A stretch of 64,000 nt of DNA from Brevinematales bacterium (GTDB taxonomy: Bacteria > Spirochaetota > Brevinematia > Brevinematales > Thermospiraceae), in assembly GCA_026417555.1 (NCBI GenBank), contig JAOADA010000004.1, forward strand, positions 1-64,000. The letters run 5' to 3'. This document shows positions 42,634 through 54,622 of this stretch, piece after piece (within the stretch, counting starts at the first letter, position 1; every line of letters begins with the position of its first letter). The position numbers were made by a program, and so were the translations under genes. The notes below the pieces were generated by a model. It saw only the letters and a program-made list of their open reading frames with translations. It had not been told where the DNA came from and ran no database searches.

Positions 42634-42662
42634 ATTTGACGATAAGCCAGAAATATGCTAAA
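42634..42662 (+). promoter_or_regulatory. Candidate promoter of mcsA-mcsB-clpC
   Basis: TTGACG (42634-42639) with an A/T-rich -10 about 17 bp downstream (TAAAAA at 42657-42662). The -10 is weak. No CtsR or CIRCE operator is visible. Confidence 0.4.
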
Positions 42663-42692
42663 ATTATAGCGTAAGCGTTTTAGATTTGCGGG

Positions 42693-42716
42693 CCTCCCTT
42701 ACGATAAATAGGGAGG
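42693..42716 (+). promoter_or_regulatory. Hairpin masking the mcsA ribosome binding site
   Basis: CCTCCCT (42693-42699) and AGGGAGG (42710-42716) form a perfect 7-bp stem around a 10-base loop. The right arm contains the Shine-Dalgarno sequence (gggagg, 42711-42716) for the ATG at 42727. Closed, it would block translation; opening by heat or by a protein would allow it. This is the layout of an RNA thermometer, and the operon is a proteotoxic-stress operon. Confidence 0.6.
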
Positions 42717-42726
42717 AGAGGTGGCT

Positions 42727-43296
42727 ATGCAGAAGAAACAATGTGATCTCTGTGGGAGACAGGACGGGGTTTTTGAGGTTCATGTGTACAGAGAAAACAA
42801 ACCTCAAAAGATGTCTCTGTGTACCCGGTGTGCCATGAAACTTTTGGAGAATAATCCAAAAGTAGGCAAGGAGATGTCGATGCTCCTGGAGAGAGGGGGA
42901 CAGGAGATCTTCCAGATGATCAGCGAGGTGCGTTCTCTGTTGGGAGAGATTGCCTCTCAGATTCATACGATTGAGACGCAGCGTGCGCAGAGTAGTGAGG
43001 TTCATTGTCGATGTGGGCTCACCTATGAGGAGTTTAAAGAAAACGGGTATCTTGGGTGTCCATGGTGTTATGAGACTTTTCGTGAGACGGTGAAAGAGAT
43101 GATTCTGGATATAGAGCGAGGTTCAGTGCATCGAGGCATGATTCCTCCGAGGTATACGTACTTTTTGGTGGTCCAGAAAGAGATTGAGTATCTCAAACGA
43201 AGATTGCGGCACTTGCTGGCCAAGGAGGCCTATGAAGAGGCAGCCAAGGTTCACAAAAAACTCAAACGCATCCTCGGCAAACACGAGTTGGGATAG
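42727..43296 (+). CDS. mcsA: McsA-like zinc protein, activator of McsB
   Basis: A 189-residue protein with four cysteine motifs: CDLC (6-9) and CTRC (32-35) at the N-terminus, then CRC and CPWC in the GYLGCPWCYETF block. A UVR domain lies near the C-terminus (AKEAYEEAAKVHKKLKRI). In Bacillus, McsA binds zinc, activates the arginine kinase McsB and joins the ClpC system. I start at ATG 42727; the GTG at 42721 is too close to the ribosome site. mcsB follows after 3 bp. Confidence 0.92.
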   Translation: MQKKQCDLCGRQDGVFEVHVYRENKPQKMSLCTRCAMKLLENNPKVGKEMSMLLERGGQEIFQMISEVRSLLGEIASQIHTIETQRAQSSEVHCRCGLTYEEFKENGYLGCPWCYETFRETVKEMILDIERGSVHRGMIPPRYTYFLVVQKEIEYLKRRLRHLLAKEAYEEAAKVHKKLKRILGKHELG

Positions 43297-43299
43297 GAT

Positions 43300-44355
43300 A
43301 TGAGGTATATTACTCTTCCTCACAGCTCTTCAGAGAAAAAACATGCGCTTGACCAGGTGGTGTGGAGTTCACGGGTGAGGTTTGCAAGAAACATAGAGGG
43401 GAGAACGTTTCCCTGGAGAATGTCAGAGCGTGAGGCATTTGAGTTAGATGAAGCGCTTACTGATCTTTTGCAAAAACTTTTTCCTGATGTGGTTTTTCTT
43501 CATACGGAGGGGCTTGATTCTGAGGAGCTTCTTCGATGGTATGCCCGGAGGGTTATCTCTCAGAATTTTGTCAAACAGGGGAGAACGTTTGGGTTTTCAC
43601 CGGATGGTTCTTGGACAGTGATGCTTCTTGAGGATGATCATATCCGTTTACAGTCTTGTGAGATGGGGTATCGAGTTCCTCAGATGATGGAGAGACTTGT
43701 TCCTTTGTTGCGTACCATGGAGAAACATATAGATTTTGCTTTTGATGAAGAAAAGGGATATCTCACAGCTTCTCTTTTGAACGTCGGGACAGGGTTGAGG
43801 CTTTCTGCTATCCTTAATCTTTGGGGGCTTGTCAGCCAGAAAAAGATCCAATCATTGATTGAATATGCCAATCAAATGAGTTATATGGTGGTCAATTTTG
43901 TTCACGAGGAGTCAGCTTCTCCTCTGTTTTATCTTTTTAACTATTATTCTCTTGGGCTTTCTGAACAGGAGATGGTTGATGAGTTTCAGCGTTTTGTCCA
44001 ACAGGTCGTAACGATGGAATTGGCAGTGCGTCAGAGGATCTTCTCGGATGAGGAAGAGAGCCGTTTGTGCTATATGGAACTCAGTGAGGTGAGAGAGTTT
44101 GATGCTCTTTCGTATGAGGATATGGTGTATTACCTTGCTCTTGTGGATGTGCTTGCCCAGCAGAATATTCTTGATCTTCCTCAGCAAGAGGAGATACGAA
44201 AACTTATTTTTGCCTATTCGGACGAGGCTATTGCGTATGAGTATCAGCTTGATCAACAAGAGGGAAACCATTTGAGGTGGCGTGAGGTGAACACTTGGCT
44301 ACGGCGGATTCACCTGAAACTGAGGTCAAAAAGAAGCTCAGGAGCTTTGGTATGA
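43300..44355 (+). CDS. mcsB: McsB-type protein-arginine kinase, divergent active site
   Basis: A 351-residue guanido-kinase-family protein. SSRVRFARN (23-31) is the ATP-binding signature. The catalytic NEEDH of the family reads LEDDH here (110-114), and the conserved Cys-Pro-Thr-Asn before VGTG reads SLLN (158-161). The second Glu loop is VHEESASP (201-208) rather than GEGSEA. Normal McsB marks proteins with phosphoarginine for ClpCP degradation. The ATP site looks intact, the guanidine site altered. Its stop overlaps the clpC start (ATGA). Confidence 0.9.
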   Translation: MRYITLPHSSSEKKHALDQVVWSSRVRFARNIEGRTFPWRMSEREAFELDEALTDLLQKLFPDVVFLHTEGLDSEELLRWYARRVISQNFVKQGRTFGFSPDGSWTVMLLEDDHIRLQSCEMGYRVPQMMERLVPLLRTMEKHIDFAFDEEKGYLTASLLNVGTGLRLSAILNLWGLVSQKKIQSLIEYANQMSYMVVNFVHEESASPLFYLFNYYSLGLSEQEMVDEFQRFVQQVVTMELAVRQRIFSDEEESRLCYMELSEVREFDALSYEDMVYYLALVDVLAQQNILDLPQQEEIRKLIFAYSDEAIAYEYQLDQQEGNHLRWREVNTWLRRIHLKLRSKRSSGALV

Positions 44356-48491: not shown

Positions 48492-51400
48492 TTAGTCTTG
48501 GTGGATTTTTAAAGGGATACGCTGGCGGAGTCCAGCATACAGGGTAGGAATAACCACAAGGGTAATGACGGTAGAAAGGGTGAGTCCCCCGAGGATAGAG
48601 AGAGCCAGGGGCACGTAGAGCTCTGATCCTTCTCCAATGCCTAATGCCATAGGAATAAGTCCTAGGATGGTTGTGAGTGTAGTCATCATAATGGGGCGAA
48701 TACGACGCACACCACTTTCCCTTGCAGCTTCGTCAGGTTTTTTCCCTGCCTTCATGTCGTTATTCATGTGGTCAATGAGGATGATGCCATTGTTGACCAC
48801 AATACCTACAAGGATAACAAACCCTAAAAAGGAGATGGTATTGAGGGTTTGGCCGGTGATGAAGAGCAAAACAAGCGAACCAACAAATCCAAACGGTACC
48901 GTAAAAAGAATCACAAAGGGAGCCCACAGGGATTCAAACTGTGAAGCCATCACAGCATACACAAGGAAGATGGCCAAAAGAAGTGCCAACGTGAGTTGTG
49001 AGAAGGACTCTTGCATATCCTTGTAGGATCCTCCATAAGAGAGAGAGAATCCCTTGGGAATGAAGACCTCTTTTTTGATCCTCGTTTGGAGACGAGAGAT
49101 GACCTGGTTCAGACTTCTCCCGTAATAATCCATAGAGATAGTAACTGTCCGTCGGTTGTTTTTTCGTGCAATGGCTGTGGGACCTGTGGTTTTTGATTGG
49201 TCGAGCAGGGATGCCAAAGGCACCAATCGACCGACGGGCGAAGGAATCTGGAGACTATAGATATCGTCAACAGAGGATCTGTCTTGCTCCATGAGCTGGA
49301 CCACCACATCGATGTCCCCACTTTCACTCGCAAGTCGGGTGGCTGTTTTGCCACCGAAGGCGGTTTTGATAGTCTGGGCCAGTGTGTAGGAGTTGAATCC
49401 AAGTTTTGAGGCAGCGACTCGATTGATGCGAAGGACTACCTCTGGCAGAGCATCACTTCTGTTGGCCGAGACGTTTCGGATCTCTGGGATGTCTTCAGCG
49501 AGTTTGATGATCTTGTTGACCAGTTTCTCGCTTTGCTTGAGATCATCTCCCTGGACCTCTATCGTGAGGGCTGATCCTCCACCCATCATAAAACCACCAG
49601 TATTTTGGAATGTGATTTTTGCAGGAAAGGGTTTGAGTGTTGAGCGCGTCTCTTCAATCAGGGTCGTGATGTTTTTGGCTCGCTTTTTGGGAGACACAAG
49701 GGTAATACGAAAGGTAGCGGTATAATCGTTTGCTCCTCCAAAGGCAAGCATCCCTCCTGTTCCTATTTGGACCTGCATGGCTTTGAGATTTTTGCCGAGG
49801 GTGGAGAGGATAGCGTCTTCCATTTTGGCGGTGATAGTATCGACATACTCTCTTCGTGTTCCCACTGGGAACTGGGCGCGTATGGTGAATTGACCCTGAT
49901 CAGTTTGAGGCATGCCTTCTTTGCCGATCAGAATGAGGATCACCAGGGCGAGAGCAAGAAAGCTTCCAAAAATGGTGATCAAGGCTTTTTTCTTGTGAGC
50001 GAGTGCCCAGGTGAGCCTTTTCTCGTACCAGGAAACAAGACTATTCCAGAAACGGTTGAAAGCGTCTTCAAGTTTACACAGGTAACAATTCTCCTCAATA
50101 TGGACCATCTTGCTTCCCAGCATAGGAACAACGGTGATGGCGACCATCAAAGAAACCAAGAGAGAGATACTGACAGTTAGGGCAAGATCCCGAAAGATTT
50201 GAGCCGTAAATCCCTCAACAAATACAATGGGCAAAAATACCGCCACTGTTGTTAAGGTCGAAGCAATAATAGGAAGCATAACCTCTTCAGAGGCCATGAT
50301 CGCTGCTTTGATGCGTCCGTATCCCTTTTGTCGGTAATAAAAGATATTTTCCAGTACCACAATCGAACTATCTACCATCATTCCTACCCCAAGGGCAAGT
50401 CCGCCAAGAGACACAATATTGAGAGAAACCCCAAAGAAATACATGGTGATAAAAGTAGCAATGATAGAAGTAGGGATGGAGATAGCAATGATAAGCACCG
50501 TTCGGAAGTTCCAAAGAAACATGAGAAGGATAAGGATAGCCAAAACACCTCCTTGGAGAGCGGCATTTCGGACGTTAGCAATGGAGGCATTGATGGACTC
50601 GGCAGTATCAAGAATAGTTTCAATCTTAAGCGAAGAAGGAAGAGAAGCACTCAACTCTTCGATGGTCTTGTGAATATCTTTGGAAACCTGGACAGTATTT
50701 CTGTCGGCTTGTTTGTAGATGGTGAGACTGACAGCAGGCTTGCCGTTTACTCGTACAATCCCTTGATCGCTACTGTTGGCATAACTCACCCTTGCCACAT
50801 CCTTGACACGGATAGGGATGCCATTTTTAACATTGATAACCACATTCTCTATGTCTTCTAACGTACGAAACTCCCCTTGAGTTCGCAACAAATACTTGTA
50901 CACCCCTTCATAGGTATATCCTCCTGCTTGGTTCTGGTTTTCAAGAGCCAGAATGTTGGCAAGAGAATCTATACTGATACCATAAGCCTCAAGGCGATTC
51001 TTGGATACGTCGATGGCTACGATTTTTTTGATCCCTCCGTTGAGATTGACACTGGCTACTCCTGGGGTTTGCTCAATCTTTGGTTTGATTTGGTTTTCGG
51101 CAAGGTTATAGAGATACTCCTGGTCCTCTGATCCCACAATACTGATGATCATTGTAGGGATGAGAGAGGTGGAGAATTTGAACACAGATGGGGTCGAGGC
51201 ATCGCTTGGCAAAAGTCTCTTGGCAAAATCGAGTTTTTCCCGAACATCGCTAGCTCTGGCATCAAGATCTGTGCCCCATTTGAAACTGATGGTAACCACA
51301 GAACGCCCCTCTGAGGAGGTAGATTCAATAGAATCAATATCATTGACAGCAGACACAGCACTCTCGATGACACGGGTGATGGATTTCTCAACCTCTTGAG

Positions 51401-51566
51401 GGGATGCTTGAGAGTAGGTGGTAACGACAGAGAGGGCTGGAAACTCAAGATTTGGAGTGAGATCCACAGGAAGTTTGGAGAGGGAGACGATACCTAAGAT
51501 GATCAAGGCCAGAAGACCCATGATCATGGTAACAGGACGTTCTACCGCTATTTTTGGTAATGACAT
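48492..51566 (-). CDS. RND-family efflux transporter (AcrB/MdtC-like)
   Basis: A 1024-residue inner-membrane pump with the RND pattern of twelve helices and two large periplasmic loops. It begins SLPKIAVERPVTMIMGLLALIILGIVSLSKLPVDLTPNLEFP. In TM4 the proton-relay pair reads VDS (GMMVDSSIVVLENI), keeping one Asp where AcrB has two, common in HAE-type relatives. It exports drugs, metals or lipophilic compounds through the periplasm. It is last in the tetR operon, 12 bp after the adaptor gene. Substrate unknown. Confidence 0.95.
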   Translation of the reverse strand: MSLPKIAVERPVTMIMGLLALIILGIVSLSKLPVDLTPNLEFPALSVVTTYSQASPQEVEKSITRVIESAVSAVNDIDSIESTSSEGRSVVTISFKWGTDLDARASDVREKLDFAKRLLPSDASTPSVFKFSTSLIPTMIISIVGSEDQEYLYNLAENQIKPKIEQTPGVASVNLNGGIKKIVAIDVSKNRLEAYGISIDSLANILALENQNQAGGYTYEGVYKYLLRTQGEFRTLEDIENVVINVKNGIPIRVKDVARVSYANSSDQGIVRVNGKPAVSLTIYKQADRNTVQVSKDIHKTIEELSASLPSSLKIETILDTAESINASIANVRNAALQGGVLAILILLMFLWNFRTVLIIAISIPTSIIATFITMYFFGVSLNIVSLGGLALGVGMMVDSSIVVLENIFYYRQKGYGRIKAAIMASEEVMLPIIASTLTTVAVFLPIVFVEGFTAQIFRDLALTVSISLLVSLMVAITVVPMLGSKMVHIEENCYLCKLEDAFNRFWNSLVSWYEKRLTWALAHKKKALITIFGSFLALALVILILIGKEGMPQTDQGQFTIRAQFPVGTRREYVDTITAKMEDAILSTLGKNLKAMQVQIGTGGMLAFGGANDYTATFRITLVSPKKRAKNITTLIEETRSTLKPFPAKITFQNTGGFMMGGGSALTIEVQGDDLKQSEKLVNKIIKLAEDIPEIRNVSANRSDALPEVVLRINRVAASKLGFNSYTLAQTIKTAFGGKTATRLASESGDIDVVVQLMEQDRSSVDDIYSLQIPSPVGRLVPLASLLDQSKTTGPTAIARKNNRRTVTISMDYYGRSLNQVISRLQTRIKKEVFIPKGFSLSYGGSYKDMQESFSQLTLALLLAIFLVYAVMASQFESLWAPFVILFTVPFGFVGSLVLLFITGQTLNTISFLGFVILVGIVVNNGIILIDHMNNDMKAGKKPDEAARESGVRRIRPIMMTTLTTILGLIPMALGIGEGSELYVPLALSILGGLTLSTVITLVVIPTLYAGLRQRIPLKIHQD

Positions 51567-54563: not shown

Positions 54564-54593
54564 GTATACGGACGGACGAGTCCGTCCGTATAC
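54564..54593. promoter_or_regulatory. TetR operator, 30-bp palindrome
   Basis: GTATACGGACGGAC and GTCCGTCCGTATAC are perfect 14-bp arms around GA. It starts next to the -10 element of the tetR promoter and covers the expected transcription start and early leader, so a bound dimer (or pair of dimers) would block the whole efflux operon. Confidence 0.85.
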
Positions 54594-54622
54594 AGTATAC
54601 TCTTTTTGGAAGGTTTCGTCAA
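54594..54622 (-). promoter_or_regulatory. Promoter of the tetR-tolC-mfp-rnd operon
   Basis: On the minus strand: TTGACG (54617-54622), a 17-bp spacer, and TATACT (54594-54599), directly followed by the operator. Between this promoter and the CRISPR remnant (54623-54963) I see no gene. Confidence 0.8.

Follow-up and report, generated by a model that had tools for sequence, protein, structure and literature searches.

The window analysed in this study is a stretch of 64,000 nucleotides from a Brevinematales genome of 2.0 Mb, assembled in 33 contigs and 98% complete. The host is probably a heat-loving spirochaete. Its growth optimum was estimated at about 63-66 °C from proteome composition (IVYWREL rule), and its tRNA G+C content is 60%. 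A 16S rRNA, sought as a check on the anti-Shine-Dalgarno sequence and on growth temperature, was not found in the assembly. The order includes a cultivated thermophile, the related strain BY33 (PMC9097414). The window carries the genes mcsA, mcsB and clpC, with dnaA as the upstream neighbour. The features of the operon and its leader are as follows:

42636-42664, plus strand: predicted promoter P1, with -35 TTGACG (42636-42641), a 17-nt spacer with TG and -10 TAAAAT (42659-42664); found by consensus scan and present in both congeners with identical spacing
42665-42684, plus strand: start-site region TATAGCGTAAGCGTTTTAGA, conserved in the alignment; an order-wide pattern search found it exactly once in each congener genome, in every case before mcsA
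42693-42699, plus strand: left arm CCTCCCT (anti-SD), the same in all three congeners
42700-42709, plus strand: 10-nt loop TACGATAAAT, with one differing base (42708 is A in the window and T in both congeners)
42710-42716, plus strand: right arm AGGGAGG with GGAGG, the upstream Shine-Dalgarno (SD) sequence; also invariant in three congeners
42717-42723, plus strand: AGAGGTG, an invariant second SD that is usable and lies beyond the 7-bp stem; it pairs only in an alternative register (42692-42696 with 42718-42722)
42727-43296, plus strand: mcsA (protein-arginine kinase activator); NCBIfam NF053706 at E 1.5e-23, under the equivalog cut-off, and the PDB McsA structure 8wtb at E 9e-15
43300-44355, plus strand: mcsB (protein-arginine kinase); Pfam PF00217 at E 6.8e-32, and NCBIfam NF053707
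44352-46847, plus strand: clpC (Clp_N, two AAA domains and a UVR motif, from profile matches), overlapping mcsB by ATGA

The sequence-only reading had named these genes as a mcsA-mcsB-clpC operon. This was confirmed by the profile and structure matches and by the spacing of the genes, with a gap of 3 nt between mcsA and mcsB followed by the ATGA overlap between mcsB and clpC. In the congener G001, mcsB (L011, 2430) shows a frame change near codon 309, with matches to residues 1-310 and 309-351 in different frames, which is either a sequencing error or real. Elsewhere in the window, an RND-type transporter gene lies at 48492-51566. In the region 54564-54622 (minus strand), a TTGACGAAA promoter serves a TetR-type regulator gene, and its -10 is directly followed by a 30-bp palindrome, GTATACGGACGGACTCGTCCGTCCGTATAC. 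The palindrome core GGACGGAC/GTCCGTCC is found again in G001 (L131) and in the other congener, G002 (L142), and from its sequence the palindrome is likely an autoregulatory operator. At two further loci (L084, near 16090 on the minus strand, and L119), the leader before a thiG-like gene resembles a TPP riboswitch by eye.

P1 is of the sigma-70 type with an extended TG, and it predicts a transcript start near 42671. Since P1 lies upstream of the hairpin and is conserved with identical spacing in the three congeners, the hairpin would be part of the mcsA transcript, within a 56-nt 5' leader of the mcsA-mcsB-clpC mRNA. In the pattern search of the order, exact copies of the start-site motif were found at mcsA only, and one-mismatch matches were no commoner than in the reversed control. 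Within this region (42665-42684 in the window; L011), AGCGTAAGCGTTTTAG of two congeners is replaced by AGTAGAAGTATTTTAG in G001, where both copies of a short direct repeat are altered alike, GCG to GTA. A candidate stem further upstream, over the -10 (alignment columns 5-24), was rejected; it would be untranscribed if P1 is used, and it is broken in G001.

The hairpin is a perfect 7-bp inverted repeat at 42693-42716, followed by AGAGGTGGCT and then by the mcsA ATG at 42727. It had been proposed that this stem covers the mcsA SD, and this holds for one of two sites: the stem is perfect and GGAGG is covered, but AGAGGTG is left free. Both sites are hidden only in a competing register of the mRNA model, in which 42692-42696 pair with 42718-42722 and 42697-42699 with 42714-42716. 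The rarity of such a stem was examined against 280 genes drawn from 22 stretches of the same genome, namely the window and 21 others. Perfect stems of 7 bp or more that involve the SD were present in 2 of the 280 sampled genes, and 6 of the 280 had a start region folded as strongly as that of mcsA. When random genomic 39-mers were set before the mcsA SD, 2.7% formed such a stem. The hairpin alone, without its conservation, is therefore mildly unusual and not rare. In predicted masking of the SD, mcsA exceeds about 79% of 278 genes, and its predicted overall SD binding at 65 °C is average (52nd percentile).

The leader was compared among the window genome and its two congeners, G001 and G002, whose McsB proteins are 86% and 70% identical to that of the window. 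At fourfold-degenerate sites of mcsA, mcsB and clpC, identity to the window was 29-38% for G001 and 38-46% for G002, so that synonymous sites among the three congeners are nearly saturated. Against this background, both comparisons gave identity at 7/7 bases of the left arm, 9/10 of the loop and 7/7 of the right arm, and 23 of the 24 hairpin bases are identical in all three congeners. Only 2-3 of the six bases directly 5' of the stem match. The right arm would be conserved anyway as an SD. For the 17 bases outside the SD (left arm and loop), the chance of at least 16 identities at a neutral identity of 0.30-0.46 is 5e-8 to 4e-5 per comparison. The 24-bp motif occurs in a single copy in each genome, always at mcsA, and was not found at groEL, groES or clpB even when three mismatches were allowed. 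Because the arms are invariant, the three congeners offer no compensatory change in the stem to prove pairing. Leader conservation is not unique to mcsA; the groEL leader of the genus is also well conserved, with no comparable hairpin in the alignment, and mcsA came second in both rankings by whole-upstream identity, which covered 7 and 10 orthologues with a shared start. The other families of the order yielded no equivalent hairpin. In genus g2 (L012-L015), a different long conserved leader, TATATAAGCGGTTTTAG ... AGTTTTTTTAAAAGTAATGCGATAATT, lies about 100-180 nt before mcsA and partly resembles the start region of the window. The comparison of leaders in relatives, which had been suggested as a check on the hairpin, thus returned invariant arms and a single loop change. 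As judged from the alignment, it is this conservation, not the bare hairpin, that raises the element above chance. Since the arms are invariant and the loop has one change at near-saturated divergence while the preceding bases vary, these results support the hairpin as a real, selected, genus-specific cis-element.

The sequence-only reading had seen no CtsR operator at mcsA and had taken missing operators as an argument for control by RNA melting. The first point was borne out. The tandem heptad operator GGTCAAA-NANN-GTCAAA had no match at mcsA with up to two mismatches, and the CtsR-box pattern stood at background level genome-wide (27 matches versus 22 control matches). No CtsR protein was detected in the 13 genomes of the order, the window genome included, although a control genome matched; likewise, no HrcA protein was detected in these 13 genomes, while 7 control genomes matched. 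The mcsA-mcsB-clpC operons of Firmicutes that are controlled by CtsR/CIRCE have identical genes in identical order. Here, however, there is no ctsR in the operon or the genome and no HrcA, so control must differ.

The step from missing operators to RNA melting was weakened by the promoters. A promoter pattern search in the genus gave 33 matches versus 2 in the reversed control, and 30 loci were examined. Among these 30 loci, nine TTGACGAT promoters stood ahead of a called gene, and in every case this gene was groES (3), groEL (3), clpB (1) or a glutaredoxin-like gene (2), with the -10 TATATT; fifteen TTGACGAA promoters stood ahead of a called gene, in every case one outside this set, mostly with the -10 TATAAT or TATACT. 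These promoter-class counts are small, and the orthologues within them are not independent. Another clpB copy has TTGACGAC in place of TTGACGAT. The distance from the -10 to the groES, groEL and clpB starts is short, only about 25-35 nt. The putative heat-shock promoter class can be written TTGACGAT-15/16-(G/A)TATATT (L113, L115, L120, L121, L127, L133, L135, L138 and L140). In the window genome, groEL (L053, 13323, contig C28) and groES (L115, contig C22) are on separate contigs, with no groESL operon, and each has its own similar promoter. The mcsA promoter has TTGACGAT in all three congeners, yet its -10 is TAAAAT. Since mcsA has the -35 of groES, groEL and one clpB, the argument from missing operators loses force, and promoter-level control in common with these genes is a live alternative to RNA melting. 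If the mcsA operon is heat-induced at all, the promoter is the more likely point of action.

According to the RNA-thermometer explanation, the ribosome site is masked by the stem while cells are at growth temperature; on heat shock the stem would melt, and McsA, McsB and ClpC would be induced. Its appeal lies in the overlap with the SD of a proteotoxic-stress operon, in the conserved stem-loop and in an order without CtsR or HrcA. A structure in the predicted transcript does pair with the ribosome-binding site, with GGAGG paired and AGAGGTG free in the main register. The registers also exchange with temperature in the model: the 7-bp stem has a probability of 0.04-0.07 at 25 °C and of 0.8-0.9 at 80 °C, and on warming it replaces the pairing that also hides AGAGGTG. 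However, the predicted free energy of the isolated hairpin was -10.9, -6.5, -4.7 and -2.8 kcal/mol at 37, 60, 70 and 80 °C, with a Tm of about 95 °C; these are nearest-neighbour calculations with standard parameters at 1 M salt and are no substitute for experiment. Between 55 and 75 °C, positions -13 to -6 of mcsA became 3.4-fold more accessible, versus a median gain of 7.0-fold for the 280 genes. In a masking measure that weighs anti-SD pairing, mcsA changed 1.7-fold versus a median of 5.2-fold. The clpB row of the accessibility tables is not meaningful, as its 56-nt window takes in promoter. Opening of AGAGGTG in the window was nearly flat, from 0.16 to 0.18-0.20 between 55 and 80 °C, and is modest over the growth range. 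In the model, opening thus does not fall within the physiological range, for which the growth temperature is itself an estimate (about 66 °C).

Comparison with known thermometers points the same way. The Rfam covariance models of thermometers (ROSE and FourU) did not match at the leader; one FourU match, at 13 bits against a cut-off of 60, was on the other strand inside mcsA. The literature searched held no relevant report of RNA thermometers tied to mcsA. The leader is like those of zipper-type thermometers (ROSE-like, FourU, lcrF) in being short and in placing a hairpin on the SD of a stress gene. In studied thermometers, however, SD pairing is imperfect or weak, A-U/G-U-rich or mismatched (PMC3280987, PMC3669281), whereas the mcsA stem is a perfect, GC-rich 7-bp stem without mismatches or G-U pairs. 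Its leader also has no FourU or U(U/C)GCU motif, one SD is outside the stem and the loop is conserved. With a Tm of about 95 °C, an SD response under the gene median and one SD outside the stem, the earlier proposal of control by RNA melting found no support, and we regard a thermometer as quite unlikely. A variant in which a two-register leader hairpin switches between hiding both and hiding one of two overlapping SDs, on heat or on a stem-loop-binding factor, in spirochaetes without CtsR and HrcA, is a speculation to which we give slightly less credence.

The explanation that we put first, at about an even chance, is a genus-specific cis-acting leader hairpin that dampens and tunes, or regulates, mcsA translation by a means other than heat melting; it rests on sequence comparison and folding models. 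The stable stem would take up the upstream half of a double SD, and the folded upstream SD would give a lower, tuned rate of mcsA translation initiation. Close coupling of the genes could extend the effect to mcsB and clpC. The level may be set constitutively, by ribosomes on the exposed AGAGGTG, or through recognition of the stem-loop by a factor acting in trans. We favour one of these over melting because conservation extends to the loop as much as to the stem, which is too stable to open in the growth range. Conservation of the stem-loop including its loop bases (23/24 in three congeners) is also what a factor-bound leader hairpin would show. In E. coli, the leader hairpins of thrS and rpsO serve autogenous or trans control of translation via a bound factor (PMC3858243). 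They likewise place a stem-loop, conserved for recognition, near the ribosome site. The mcsA stem differs in its arrangement, as it overlaps one of two SDs.

The same block could instead be a passive, non-regulatory leader, conserved because selection maintains an efficient ribosome site and a stable mRNA 5' end, with AGAGGTG as the working SD. AGAGGTG is indeed free in the main stem, overall SD binding is predicted to be average at 65 °C, and the groEL leader is well conserved without such a hairpin. This reading is nevertheless rather unlikely, for ribosome binding does not account for the left arm and loop, two segments beyond the SD that stayed conserved in spite of saturated divergence. 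The 24-bp dyad, with its conserved interior directly downstream of the promoter, might also be a DNA operator, where binding of a repressor to about +22 to +45 would block transcription in place of CtsR or HrcA; the order has no known heat-shock repressor. We consider this unlikely, since the motif occurs once per genome and is absent from groEL, groES and clpB, one arm coincides exactly with the SD, and the TTACGATAA repeat in the interior has a different centre from the outer dyad. Finally, the loop might supply the -10 of an additional promoter, TTTAGA-18-GATAAT. Related families carry proximal promoters at a similar location, for instance with the pair TTTAGT-17-GATAAT, and the promoter in the loop would be homologous to these. 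We rejected this candidate as very improbable: the sole loop substitution, in the window genome, destroys the key final T (GATAAA), transcription would start within the SD, and the conserved CCTCCCT spacer would be left unexplained.

In kind, the mcsA leader hairpin is ordinary. No description of heat-shock control in this order was found in the literature searched. For an order with CtsR and HrcA missing from all 13 genomes searched, the conserved leader element and the shared promoter signature provide two concrete, separable hypotheses on how the protein-quality machinery is controlled.
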